DNA from: Gloeomargaritales cyanobacterium VI4D9
Lineage (GTDB): Bacteria > Cyanobacteriota > Cyanobacteriia > Gloeomargaritales > Gloeomargaritaceae
Assembly (NCBI GenBank): GCA_927797885.1
Contig: OV696605.1
Location: forward strand, 1,773,157 to 1,837,156
DNA length: 64,000 nucleotides
Direction: 5' to 3'
Part shown: positions 11,376 to 63,099 of the stretch, piece after piece
Numbering within the stretch: the first letter of the stretch is position 1
How the letters are laid out: every line of letters begins with the position of its first letter
The notes under the pieces: generated by a model
Database searches by the model: none
What the model was told of the DNA's origin: nothing
The model's input: the letters and a program-made list of their open reading frames with translations, nothing else
Translations under genes and position numbers: made by a program

Positions 11376-11495
11376 GGGCATCTCTATAATTATTTGAGCC
11401 AACCATAAATCTCATCGTTAGCATACCCATATTACCCAGAACCAAGGGCGGGGGTGCCCCCTGCGACCGCTAACTTTGAACTTATAGAGGTGCCC
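11376..11495 (+). repeat. Family B miniature inverted-repeat element, complete
   Basis: 120 bp bounded by GGGCATCTCTATAA and TTATAGAGGTGCCC, which are inverted repeats matching at 13 of 14 positions. The interior has the shared core CCAGAACCAAGGGCGGGG followed by TGCCCCCTGCGACC. It codes for nothing, as expected of a non-autonomous element. Confidence 0.7.
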
Positions 11496-13509: not shown

Positions 13510-14143
13510 GATTCCCCGTCAAAATCCATTTACTGTACACAAAAACAAGCAAGCACTCTCAAACTATAGCAATTTTACCCGATGGTGCTGATGGGGAAGC
13601 CATTGGATAAATATGGGTTTGTCTGAGAATTTGAGATGATTGATGTGAAGGAGCTTAGAAATCCTCGCAGAAGTCATGGCAAGGTATGGTTAAATGAACC
13701 GCTCCATTGTAACGAGCGGGGTATCGGAACCAAAACAGATTAGATTGATGATTTTGATATATGGCAGTTCTAAATGATTTGATTAACGCACAGATTAACC
13801 AATAAAAATTTCCCAGAACCAATGACGGGGGCGGTGCCCCTGCGACCCATATTCTAAATTCATTCAGGATTGCTATAGCTACAACTTTATTTATAAATCT
13901 AATCTCGTCAATAATCTAATCTCATCAATGCGTGACAGGCTCTCACCTTGGGCGATTCTCAATATTTGTACATTAATAAAAAAAACTATCATTTCAAAAA
14001 GTTTCTGTTTTGTCAATAAGTATAAATTCTAGTTATTCTAATCTTGTTTCTTATTTAATGTTGTTTGTAATACAAATACTACCGGGAATAATTTGCTATC
14101 TTATATAGATAGATGAATATACCCATAAAAAGCAAACAAACTT
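13510..14143. other. Long gap upstream of the sensor kinase, with one family-A repeat
   Basis: No supported gene. A 35-codon frame from about 13637 (starting MIDVKELRNPRRSHGKVW) is too short and isolated to call. A family-A element occupies 13758-13877. The last 200 bp are very AT-rich and probably carry the kinase promoter; no clear sites were identified. Confidence 0.4.
13758..13877 (-). repeat. Family A miniature inverted-repeat element, inverted orientation
   Basis: About 120 bp. The right end is AGGATTGCTATA, and the left end is a diverged TATATGGCAGTTCTAAA. The core CCCAGAACCAATGACGGGGG plus CGGTGCCCCTGCGACCC matches the copies at 55676-55778 and 62972-63099 read on the opposite strand. 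Confidence 0.7.
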
Positions 14144-31322: not shown

Positions 31323-31803
31323 AGGGGGTCAGTGAGGAACAGTCGGATGGTATTTTAACATCATGACCGAGGCAAACGGTTTTTGGGAAACATCTATTCA
31401 TCAGGACACATCTACCTACAGGTACCTCGATTTTATTGATGCAACAGATAAGAAAAAAGAGAGTTTTAAGTAAGTAATGTTAGCATCGAATCTCTGATTG
31501 AATCAATGGTTCCATTAACCCTCAACTTGGCAAACCGGGCCATGGTTCATACAACCATTTCCTTACCCTTGGAGACCACCTTGGATTTACGACGAAATCC
31601 GACAAATCAATGACAATGATTTTAATAGCGAAGCGTGTCCGCTGGACATAGAGCAATCCTACTTGATTAACGTTAGCTTGCGTGCCGTAGGCATACAGAA
31701 ATTCCCTAGAACCAAGTAGAGGGGTGGTGTTCCTGTGAACCCTGTTCCATTTTCCTTTGGGATTGTCATAGCACTGCCATCGAACGGAAGTGGCCTGTGC
31801 TTT
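31323..31803. other. Gap with a family-A repeat, otherwise empty
   Basis: Nothing coding is supported on either strand. The family-A copy lies at 31648-31770. The AT-rich 31440-31640 portion looks like decayed DNA with no recognisable source. Confidence 0.45.
31648..31770 (-). repeat. Family A miniature element, long variant
   Basis: It is read on the minus strand. The window-left end is ATAGAGCAATCCTACTTGAT and the right end is GGGATTGTCATA. Like the copy at 62972-63099 it has an extra segment TTAACGTTAGCTT...GTAGGCATA between the core and one end. The GC core is degraded (AGGGGTGGTGTTCCTGTGAA). Confidence 0.6.
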
Positions 31804-35403: not shown

Positions 35404-35469
35404 TATATAGCAATCCTAAATGAGAATGGAATATGGGTCGCAGGGGCACTCCCCGCCCTTGTTTCTCGA
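35404..35469 (+). repeat. Left part of a miniature element interrupted by the IS4 element
   Basis: It starts TATAGCAATCCTAAATGAGA, the family-A end, and runs into the GGTCGCAGGGGCACTCCCCG core. It then stops at GTTTCTCGA, the IS target site. The continuation is at 36587-36643, which has a family-B end (AATAGAGGTGCCC), so the interrupted copy was chimeric or two elements had merged. Confidence 0.65.
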
Positions 35470-47625: not shown

Positions 47626-47736
47626 GGGCACTTCTGAACATCGGTCGCAGGGGCGTAGCCCCCATCCCTGGTTCTCAATAGTATGGGCATGCCAGCTAAA
47701 TAAACGTTCCATTGGTGCAAATAAATAGAGGTGCCC
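47626..47736 (+). repeat. Family B miniature element
   Basis: 111 bp. Ends are GGGCACTTCTGAA and AATAGAGGTGCCC. The interior has GGTCGCAGGGGCGTAGCCCC and then the stretch shared with 36587-36643. Confidence 0.65.
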
Positions 47737-47760: not shown

Positions 47761-47860
47761 TATAGCAATCCTAAATGAGAATGGAACAGAGGGTCGCAGG
47801 GGCACCGCCCCCGTAAAAGAAGCACCTGCGGTGTATGGTTCTGAAAAATTTTTGTTATAG
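47761..47860 (+). repeat. Family A miniature element
   Basis: Starts TATAGCAATCCTAAATGAGA and carries GGTCGCAGGGGCACCGCCCC. After TGGTTCTGAAAAATTTTTGT it ends TTATAG, so the right end is truncated. A 15-bp insertion interrupts the core. Confidence 0.65.
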
Positions 47861-55060: not shown

Positions 55061-55405
55061 TTAACTTTTCGCCTTACATTCCAGGGGAGTCATGCGTCCG
55101 ATAGTCACCGTCAGGTGTTCCCCTTTACCACTAATCGTTGTACTTTTATTACGATTGCTGTACCGAAATCCCGAAGCCGCCGGTTCCTGTTGGAGTGCGA
55201 TGGTCTCCCCATTGCGGCTCAGAATTGCCTTCTCTTGGTTGGGCAAAAAACGTACTGATAGGGACTCGCCGCCCGTACAGGTAAAAGCTACCTCCTTTCC
55301 AGAAGCATTATTGTTGGTCAAGGTAGTGGTGCATCCAACGCTCCCAATCGCCACCCCCGTCACCAGCCAGAAAACTTTCAAAGCCTTCCCCCTCCAAACA
55401 ATCAT
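55061..55405 (-). CDS. MliC-like lysozyme-inhibitor lipoprotein
   Basis: 114 aa. A hydrophobic N-terminus leads to GSVGC, a probable lipoprotein cysteine at residue 25, with an unusual Ser at -3. The mature part fits the MliC fold: FTCTGGESLSVRFLP, SGFRYSNRNKSTTISGKGEH (part), and a last Cys (PLECKAKS) that should pair with the first. MliC proteins bind and inhibit C-type lysozymes of animals. One in a cyanobacterium suggests protection from grazers or muramidases, by inference. Confidence 0.7.
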   Translation of the reverse strand: MIVWRGKALKVFWLVTGVAIGSVGCTTTLTNNNASGKEVAFTCTGGESLSVRFLPNQEKAILSRNGETIALQQEPAASGFRYSNRNKSTTISGKGEHLTVTIGRMTPLECKAKS

Positions 55406-55425
55406 TTCTCAGCTTAACAAATCAA

Positions 55426-55546
55426 GGGCACCTCTATTAATTCATGACTATTGAGAATGACCCCTAGGTTATTGATAATTGCCAACGAGAGAATCGGGCT
55501 TCCGAGTCTGTCATGTAAGTACAAAAATCAATAGATAGAGGTTTCC
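55426..55546 (+). repeat. Tandem element, first unit
   Basis: 121 bp, from GGGCACCTCTATTAA to ATAGAGGTTTCC. Inverted ends are of family-B type, but the interior (GTTATTGATAATTGCCAACG, then CTTCCGAGTCTG) is different from the GC-core elements. The second unit lies 4 bp downstream. Confidence 0.7.
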
Positions 55547-55550
55547 TCAA

Positions 55551-55671
55551 GGGTGTCTCTATTAATTCATGGCTCTTGGGAATAACCCCGACGTTATTGA
55601 TAATTGCCAACAAGAGAATGGGGCTTCCGAGCCTGCCGTGTAAGTACAAAAATCAGTAATATAGAGCGCCC
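55551..55671 (+). repeat. Tandem element, second unit
   Basis: 121 bp, from GGGTGTCTCTATTAA to ATATAGAGCGCCC. The interior matches the first unit at nearly all positions (GTTATTGATAATTGCCAACA, CTTCCGAGCCTG, GTAAGTACAAAAATCA). A 121-bp repeat with its own inverted ends implies tandem insertion or duplication. Confidence 0.7.
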
Positions 55672-55675
55672 TAAA

Positions 55676-55778
55676 TATAGCAATCCTAAATGAAAATGGA
55701 ATAAGGGTTGCAGGGGCACCGCCCCCGTCCTTGGTTCTGGGAAATTTTTGTTGGTTAATCAAATAGGATTGCTATATT
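55676..55778 (+). repeat. Family A miniature element, best-preserved copy
   Basis: 103 bp. Perfect 13-bp inverted ends TATAGCAATCCTA (55676-55688) and TAGGATTGCTATA (55766-55778). The interior has GTTGCAGGGGCACCGCCCCC and TCCTTGGTTCTGGGAAATTT. It is non-coding and sits 4 bp after the tandem family-B-ended units. Confidence 0.85.
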
Positions 55779-55914
55779 CCTATCAAACTGATTGAAATGA
55801 TGTGGTCAGCCTTAAGGAATTTTCTTCGACAGTTTCATGATTCACCAGTACAAAATATACATTCAATCATCGAAGTATCTTTGTTGTTAATCCTTCCTCT
55901 TTTGCAAGTTACCG

Positions 55915-56028
55915 TCTATTTATCAATTAAAGGATGCAAAAAGCCTCGATTATCCTAAAGGCTTACCGTGATTGACCTACGGCAAGCGGGGTTCAACTGT
56001 ATCCCATAACCACTCAAAAGACTGTAGT
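55915..56028 (-). repeat. R3 dispersed repeat, inverted copy
   Basis: Read on the minus strand it runs from ACAGTCTTTTGAGTGG to TTAATTGATAAATAGACGG, matching 11257-11365. The internal hairpin is better here: AAGCCT-(12 nt)-AGGCTT followed by T residues, like a transcription terminator. Confidence 0.65.
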
Positions 56029-56218
56029 TTGCTAAAGGTTGTTATTGTACCCTGTAATAAAAGAAAAGACTGTAATATCCATCCATTGATAGGACATAAG
56101 TTAGGATATGGGCATTCCAGCGAGATAATTTTCTGGCAGTGTCAATAAACAGCGGCGTTCTAATAGGTTCTAACAAGTCCTAGAATTGTTGATACTCAAA
56201 CCATAGCAAGGGGTAAAA

Positions 56219-57244
56219 ATGTCTGAACGGCAACGTTGGTATCGGCACTTAAGTCAGATATTCACCCCTCGACCGACCAGCCCGCAGAACCTCGAGGATT
56301 TAGAGCAATTACGGCAAATCCAGATGAACTTATATGCGGAATCCCAGTTGGATACGCCCTACCTGGTCATGGTGGTGGGTTCCTGCATCATTGCCACCTT
56401 GGGTTTGCTCGCCAACAGTGCCGCTGTGATTATTGGGGCGATGATCGTGGCTCCTTTGATGATGCCGATTCGGGGGTTGGCCTTTGGGGCACTCATCGGC
56501 GATCTGACCCTATTCCGGCGGGCTTTCCTGTCGGTGGGGGTGGGGGCGGGGGTGGCGATCCTGCTGTCCTGTGGGTTGGGACTGATGGCGGGATTATCTA
56601 CATTTGGGAGTGAAATTTTGGCTCGCTCGACCCCCAATTTACTGGATTTAGGGATTGCGATTGCGGCGGGAGCCATTTGCGGGTATGCGTTGGTGGAACC
56701 CAAGGTGTCGGCGACGTTGCCGGGGACGGCGATTGCGGTGGCGTTGATGCCGCCCGTGTGTGTGGTGGGGTTGGGGTTGTCCCAGGGGAATTGGGTTCTC
56801 AGTTGGGGCGCATTTTTGCTGTTTTTGACCAATTTTCTGGGAATTGCCCTAGCCTGTATGGTGGCTTTTATTTTGGCGGGCTATGCCCATTGGAAAAAAG
56901 CTAGGGGCGTTTTGGCCGTGGGGACACTGTTGACGAGTACATTGGTGATCCCCCTCGGTATTAGTTTTGTGGAACTTACTCGCCAAAATCGCTTGGAAGC
57001 CAATCTCCGCCAAGCCCTTCTGAGCGGCACCATTACTTTTCAACGGGTGGAATTAATCCGCACCCATACCAATTGGCAGATGCATCCCCCGGAGACGCGC
57101 CTGACGGTGCGGGCACAGGAACCCATTACCCCCCGCCAAGTGAGGCTACTCGAAAAGTTTTTAGAACGCCGCATGGGACAAAAATTCACCCTGGTTTTTG
57201 ATGTCAATCCCATTCAAGAAGTGCGTGCCAATGATACACCCTAG
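56219..57244 (+). CDS. DUF389 (TIGR00341-type) membrane protein
   Basis: 341 aa. After a 40-residue N-terminus come six spans with the family motifs NSAAVIIGAMIVAPLMMPI and LPGTAIAVALMPPVCVVG. A cytoplasmic C-terminal domain of about 90 residues follows. The family has no settled function. It is flanked by repeat DNA on both sides; no operon partner is seen. Confidence 0.86.
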   Translation: MSERQRWYRHLSQIFTPRPTSPQNLEDLEQLRQIQMNLYAESQLDTPYLVMVVGSCIIATLGLLANSAAVIIGAMIVAPLMMPIRGLAFGALIGDLTLFRRAFLSVGVGAGVAILLSCGLGLMAGLSTFGSEILARSTPNLLDLGIAIAAGAICGYALVEPKVSATLPGTAIAVALMPPVCVVGLGLSQGNWVLSWGAFLLFLTNFLGIALACMVAFILAGYAHWKKARGVLAVGTLLTSTLVIPLGISFVELTRQNRLEANLRQALLSGTITFQRVELIRTHTNWQMHPPETRLTVRAQEPITPRQVRLLEKFLERRMGQKFTLVFDVNPIQEVRANDTP

Positions 57245-57676
57245 ATGCTGGGTACCCTGGAACCAATGCCCCTGAATTAACCAGGATTGCCGGTAAAATA
57301 TAGTGGGACACCCTGATGACACTCACCTATCCTACTTGATTAAGGTGAGCTTCCATGTCCTAGGCATACAGGAATTTCCCAGAACCAAGGACAGGGGCGG
57401 TGCCCCTGCAACCCCTATGCCATTCTCATTTGTTACACTGCAACCCCGCTTGGTAACCCAGTAGCACCCTGGAACTCCTTTTCACAATTCGCCCAGGATT
57501 GTTATATTAAGATGTTAGGATGACCACTTACCAATCCTGTGGGATTGCCATGGGTTGAATCCAGTAGGTTAGCAAATCTAATGAGTTATAAAAGAAAATC
57601 CTATGGAAAATGGGTTGATATTTACCGGGATTCTGTTTAATTTTAGGATAGGTACACCCCTATGAGGTACACTGCA
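57245..57676. other. Intergenic region with a family-A repeat, upstream of the CP12-like gene
   Basis: 432 bp without a gene. A family-A copy lies at 57330-57437. The AT-rich end (57560-57660) should hold the promoter of the CP12-like gene; I identified no specific CO2-regulator site. Confidence 0.4.
57330..57437 (-). repeat. Family A miniature element, degraded ends
   Basis: Read on the minus strand. It keeps TCCTACTTGATTAAGGTGAG, CTAGGCATACAGGAATTTCC and the core CAGGGGCGGTGCCCCTGCAA, then CCATTCTCATTTGT. Neither terminal TATAGCAATCC is preserved in full. It is the long variant of the family. Confidence 0.6.
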
Positions 57677-59819: not shown

Positions 59820-59945
59820 GGCCATCACACCTGAACTTATTAGAACCAACGAAAAATCTCATCCTCGGAATGCCCATCTTTCCCAGAACCAAGGGCGGGG
59901 GGTGCCCCCCTACGACCGCTAATTTCTCATTTATAGAGGTTCCCC
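59820..59945 (+). repeat. Family B miniature element, diverged left end
   Basis: 126 bp aligned with 11376-11495: AACCAACGAAAAATCTCATC, then CCCAGAACCAAGGGCGGGG, TGCCCCCCTACGACCGCTAA and the end TTATAGAGGTTCCCC. The left end is mutated (GGCCATCACACC). Confidence 0.6.
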
Positions 59946-62971: not shown

Positions 62972-63099
62972 TATAGCAATCCTAAATGAGAATGGAACAG
63001 GGGTGGCAGGGGTACTGTTCCCGTCCTTAGTTCTGGGAAATTGAAATTTCTCTATGCCTACGGCACGTAAGCTAACGTTAATCAAGTAGGATTCCTATG
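62972..63099 (+). repeat. Family A miniature element, long variant
   Basis: 128 bp from TATAGCAATCCTAAATGAGA to AAGTAGGATTCCTATGA. Inner parts are GGTGGCAGGGGTACTGTTCC (mutated core), TAGTTCTGGGAAATTGAAAT and the variant segment TATGCCTACGGCACGTAAGC. It matches 31648-31770 on the opposite strand. Confidence 0.7.

Follow-up and report, generated by a model that had tools for sequence, protein, structure and literature searches.

The 101-bp repeat at positions 55676-55776 of the window, by which we mean the whole 64,000-nucleotide stretch of DNA analyzed here, is in all probability (roughly 94%, in our estimate) a type I MITE, in which both ends of an IS630-family (IS630/Tc1/mariner) element enclose approximately 55 bp of unrelated, hairpin-forming DNA. 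We adopt this reading because the arms of the repeat match the ends of such an element, TA duplications fit the empty sites, copies number in the hundreds, and full-size relatives occur in congeners. The family is new, and the kind of element is already known and ordinary. Elements of the IS630 family are about 1.1-1.3 kb long, are bounded by TA, and encode a transposase with HTH and DDE_3 domains. Such a transposase would bind the ends of approximately 13-27 bp in trans and would then excise the MITE and insert it at a TA. Mobilization by an IS630-type transposase had been proposed in the preliminary description of this DNA; the ends and the TA duplications agree with that proposal, and from them we infer the movement itself.

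The intact element and the other copies in the window

The intact copy is of the short form and lies on the forward strand, as delimited from its sequence, blastn, and end matches. As originally claimed, it carries perfect 13-bp inverted ends: TATAGCAATCCTA at 55676-55688 (forward strand), in an arm that copies the 3' end of the IS630 element, and its exact inverse at 55764-55776 (reverse strand), in an arm that copies the 5' end. The extent first given, 55676-55778, was slightly too long, as its last two bases (55777-55778) are flank. Judging from the empty sites identified for other copies, we place the two TA target copies at 55676-55677 and 55775-55776. A GC-rich hairpin core, CAGGGGCACCGCCCC, is located at 55711-55725 on the forward strand. 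The element is non-coding, which together with its length and perfect terminal inverted repeats is characteristic of MITEs; 18 of 20 arm bases are paired, and the strand folds better than its shuffled versions (z -2.99, with 0 of 200 shuffles as good). No Rfam family was found in the window at the gathering threshold.

All seven copies originally listed for the window were recovered at their places by blastn with the short and long consensus sequences, and a reversed decoy gave no match. However, only the copy at 55676 is intact, and the other six are broken or degenerate. With up to two mismatches allowed, the window contains 13 occurrences of the 13-mer, where 0.67 would be expected. A partial copy at 13793-13877 (reverse strand; end scan and blastn) retains one end with one mismatch and has lost the other, and a truncated copy at 35406-35466 (forward strand) breaks off after an exact end and the core. 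The long variant, described earlier as having an added segment, was confirmed at four places: 31649-31765 (reverse strand), with the segment TATGCCTACGGCACGC, one end with one mismatch and the other decayed; 47761-47855 (forward strand), truncated; 57329-57431 (reverse strand; blastn), degenerate with both ends decayed; and 62972-63098 (forward strand), with one exact end and two mismatches in the other. Three additional matches (11431-11471, 47636-47675, and 59879-59933) comprise core or inner parts only and lie in or beside another repeat family.

A parent IS630 element and the evidence for transposition

The preliminary description had predicted an IS630-type element with the same ends, and one was found in the same genome. 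The DDE_3 profile (PF13358) has 23 matches in the genome, 20 of which were fetched as loci, and among these only L048 is bounded at full size by these ends. This element (L048:795-2044, that is, C1:959166-960415) lies between exact 13-bp ends and has HTH_23 and DDE_3 Pfam matches above the cut-offs (PF13358, 57.6 bits against 28.6). Of 27 bases compared between the left arm of the MITE and the 3' end of this element, 26 are identical, and the right arm agrees with the 5' end at 20 of 21, with a single gap. These pairings score 25 and 18, against 13 and 14 when the arms are swapped, and the MITE therefore keeps both distinct ends of the element around an unrelated middle. The arms match the corresponding element of G001 less well (scores of 20 and 14). 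Several other IS630 loci were considered as parents and set aside: the ends at L036 face outward, L049 sits between two MITE copies, the clade L032-L038 has ACAGTCTTTTATG-like ends, and the remaining loci have no such end pair or only MITE copies nearby. An IS630 transposase had been reported as missing from the window. This is correct for the parent, which lies outside it, but not for the family as a whole, since the remains of another IS630 element occupy 55791-56074 beside the intact MITE. This relic is 84% identical to the gene of L034 and is split by a member of a third repeat family (ACAGTCTATTTAT...) at about 55907-56026; L034 likewise contains a copy of that family, 93% identical.

L048, the only near-complete copy of this genome, is probably dead, because a MITE copy interrupts its transposase gene and the reading frame is altered at a run of A; the latter could reflect decay or programmed frameshifting. 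Elsewhere in the genome, the C-terminal half of its protein is represented only by pieces at three places (five matches in all), and the relic L052 carries a long-variant MITE. In consequence, the spread of the MITE in this genome has probably stopped or relies on an unseen source. Full-size elements with exact ends also occur in the congeners G002 (1132 bp) and G001 (1151 bp), and in both, two reading frames meet at a run of A. Close to the 3' end of the G002 element, 17 bases are deleted, and the G001 transposase has N at the first presumed catalytic residue, where the other two copies have a D that we take to be catalytic. Positions 1-278 of the 299 of the NCBIfam IS630 model NF033545 are matched by the G001 copy in two halves, with 94.4 and 64.7 bits, each under the whole-protein cut-off of 100. 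Activity of any of the three full-size copies, in G000 (L048), G001, and G002, is therefore at most putative. Among eight genomes of the order, the MITE matches G000, G001, G002, and G006 and is without a match in G003, G004, G005, and G007; the transposase matches G000, G001, and G002, with one short piece in G004. G006 has MITEs and no transposase match, in an assembly that is 83% complete.

Comparison with G002 provided orthologous empty sites at C1:1591147 (AAGC-TA-TCAG) and C1:1716406 (TTAC-TA-GAAG). These are the two clean cases among 10 elements examined; two more of the 10 belong to the array at C1:1591147, and the remaining ones are rearranged, one-flanked, or ambiguous against G002. 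A third orthologous site is the gap after C1:2236502, the only one empty in G002 among five conserved gaps with the repeat, the other four being occupied in both genomes. Three gaps in which G002 alone carries a piece yielded no clean TA case. Two paralogous empty sites were obtained by comparing the IS copies L048 and L052. All five MITE empty sites, three orthologous and two paralogous, fit a duplicated TA, within the small number of sites that could be tested, and the suggested TA target duplication was thereby borne out. The contrary outcomes named in advance, no transposase element with matching ends and no empty sites in relatives, were both looked for and did not occur, given L048 and the three orthologous sites in G002.

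The exact 13-mer end occurs 437 times (220 + 217) in the 3.16-Mb, one-contig genome, and its reversed pattern is absent. The genome-wide search recommended earlier was run with the 101-base copy and gave at least 52 matches, at least 46 of which span at least 97 of the 101 bases; these are lower bounds, as 40 of 458 candidates were scored. Elements with paired ends number 38 in 457 kb, against 0 in each of three shuffles. In 857 kb, blastn with the short and long consensus sequences identified 130 pieces totaling 11.4 kb, 75 of which are at least 90 bp long, suggesting about 480 pieces in the whole genome if their density is even. Such dispersed high copy number is likewise characteristic of MITEs. 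The copies had been described as always lying between genes, which nearly holds: 125 of the 130 pieces overlap ORFs of at least 100 aa by less than 20%, as against 12% of random 100-mers falling outside ORFs in the 457-kb part, but three pieces lie inside an ORF.

The folding of the strand and the intergenic placement of the copies would also be expected of a structural or regulatory repeat under selection, such as a bidirectional terminator, an mRNA stabilizer, or a protein-binding palindrome, whose IS-like ends would be retained by descent only. We consider this very unlikely. It is opposed by the TA duplications at empty sites, the MITE insertions within transposase genes, and the decayed state of many copies; furthermore, neither convergent nor divergent gaps were clearly preferred, and the sole terminator-like site in 55400-56250 lies outside the element. 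By folding, position, and pattern scan, the MITE gave no sign of a cellular role. Still less probable is a spread in which recombination or segmental duplication, and not transposition, played the main part. Copies at gene-order breaks and the tandem array described next would favor it, but the exact element borders, the duplicated TA at empty sites, and the mostly unrelated flanks of 30 compared copies (a few being shared) argue against it. In that array (C1:1591147-1591497; L011, L012, and L028), three MITE copies are joined by two identical 23-base spacers; at this place G002 lacks the MITE and has a single similar spacer.

Spread of the ends and comparison with known elements

For the type I MITE described here, the ends reach well beyond this genome. 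The exact 13-mer was found in 98 of 386 genomes of the phylum, a number that includes single hits at the level of the reversed-pattern control (0 or 1 per strand), among them one hit in each of five genomes of other classes. This genome has by far the most (437), followed by G002 (177), G260 (94), and G001 (91). A paired-end scan of named genomes gave at least 99 stretches, at least 80 of them with a name. Among the matches listed are Nostoc, Tychonema, Trichodesmium, Okeania, Prochloron, Pseudanabaena, and others, as well as some Chloroflexota MAGs and one Competibacteraceae MAG, where contamination is possible. MAGs labeled Oscillochloris, Chloroflexales, and Chloroflexaceae (L112, L117, L127, L129, L146, and others) carry the MITE ends around cores of their own, through either transfer between phototrophs or mis-binning. 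Calling the repeat cyanobacterial was thus slightly too narrow. No match was found among plasmid records. When 101 elements from the paired-end scan were compared by eye, a longer end of about TATAGCAATCCTAAATSATTYGTGA was common to them, and the cores differed and were often palindromic; in the same loci, 39 of the 101 have cores with additional matches in DNA that is not enclosed by such ends.

The transposase was matched (E 0.001) in 17 of 27 end-rich genomes, against 1 of 15 without the ends. The 27 were chosen for at least 17 ends, with some qualifying genomes omitted, and the weak matches among the 17 (down to E 1e-5) may be any IS630. Ten of the 27 have no transposase match, and matching ends were verified in six. 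Beyond the genus, TATAGCARYCC ends spanning 1122-1331 bp enclose 12 of 30 transposase loci, which represent 11 distinct elements in seven genomes, and the IS630 transposases with such ends there are 45-56% identical. The seven genomes are six of the 27 together with G009, whose related IS630 elements (L203 and L219) have ends altered to TATAGCAGYCC and which lacks the exact 13-mer; these elements perhaps represent a variant of the shell without these MITEs. At other fetched transposase loci, the ends are of another sequence (for example TATAGCGATCG in L221) or were not found. Peptide patterns retrieved no close transposase homologues from the contig collection. In having an HTH and DDE_3 partner of the expected size bounded by TA, the system resembles the IS630 family generally, and the frame change at a run of A is shared by G000, G001, and G002; by contrast, the eight near-identical IS630 copies in G260 have a single frame of 365 or 374 codons.

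Type I MITEs are described, in the excerpts of PMC3542288 consulted, as non-autonomous derivatives that have their ends in common with a resident IS. The present family agrees with the bacterial type I MITEs described there in being short, non-coding, and mostly intergenic, with IS-shared ends and target duplication, and it differs in that its hairpin core is not IS-derived and recurs in a repeat family with other ends, and in that its end sequence is common to much of a class. According to the same excerpts, Anabaena sp. 90 has 147 complete or partial MITEs, 132 of them intergenic, which were called type II because no IS ends matched, and an IS630 element is listed with every copy disrupted (PMC3542288). 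As described there, these MITEs are, as here, cyanobacterial and mostly intergenic, and the Nezha MITE (Zhou et al. 2008) is likened to ours by its description as a further cyanobacterial MITE. The repeat was also compared with REP/REPIN sequences, described in the part of PMC3733652 seen as short palindromes tagged GTAG or CGTC and associated with a RAYT transposase; it has IS630 ends and TA duplication instead. In the open-licence literature, judged from titles and abstract openings, we found neither the end sequence in work on cyanobacterial repeats nor a title describing this family.

A shared core, gene order, and implications

The core is not confined to this family. The pattern GGTCGCAGGGGC-NNN-GCCCC at up to two mismatches occurs 110 times in 857 kb: 80 lie by the ends of the MITE family, 21 by those of a second repeat family (AGGGCACTTCTA / TAGAGGTGCCCT, matched as loose patterns), and nine by neither, some of the nine being decayed MITEs by eye. 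Aligned by eye, the cores of the two families are identical at 28 of 33 bases and may, to go by this likeness, reflect core exchange or a common origin. In the window, the second family, with the same GC hairpin core, occupies 47626-47736, and single ends of it occur near 11376-11495, 36643, 55426, and 59944.

Gene order was compared with G002 through 251 pairs of neighboring single-copy ORFs present in the G002 sample, after 62 multi-copy ORFs were dropped; median ORF identity was 94% among hits above the 78% filter. Of these pairs, 223 are adjacent in G002 too, a comparison that treats raw ORFs as genes and samples 56% of the main contig of G002, such that breaks are undercounted. Among gaps of at least 100 bp, 15 of 20 with the MITE family are broken versus 12 of 85 without it (Fisher 2.4e-7); the corresponding figures are 20 of 25 versus 7 of 80 for any repeat of at least 60 bp and 5 of 6 versus 7 of 79 for other repeats only. 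In G002, the MITE family is present at 18 of 56 break sides versus 7 of 82 conserved gaps (p 0.0006). The G002 sides that match breaks with the MITE family showed no enrichment (9 of 30 versus 169 of 645 of all gaps of at least 100 bp). Recombination between MITE copies was accordingly set aside as an unproven cause of the breaks, as its two-sided signature was not found and other repeats associate alike. Repeats mark gene-order breaks, which they may cause; alternatively, they may accumulate at places that tolerate insertion. Within the window, several repeat families cluster with the IS630 relic at 55424-56074, between two gene blocks whose orthologues are far apart in G002.

A broader picture can be offered tentatively, with the odds somewhat against it: a strongly conserved shell of 13-27 bp, read by one IS630 clade, may be reused across Cyanobacteriia and some Chloroflexota, with lineage-specific hairpin cores moving between shells and the resulting cassettes marking, and perhaps causing, rapid changes in the gene order of congeners.

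These findings provide a high-copy cyanobacterial MITE family with a parent element and with empty sites that fit TA duplication. MITEs of this kind can be recognized across the class by the shared ends, and for the MITEs of Anabaena sp. 90, left without a parent IS in the excerpted account of PMC3542288, a direct check for these ends is now possible. The occurrence of one core in two shells, and of copies at gene-order breaks, offers leads on how small repeats may shape compact genomes.
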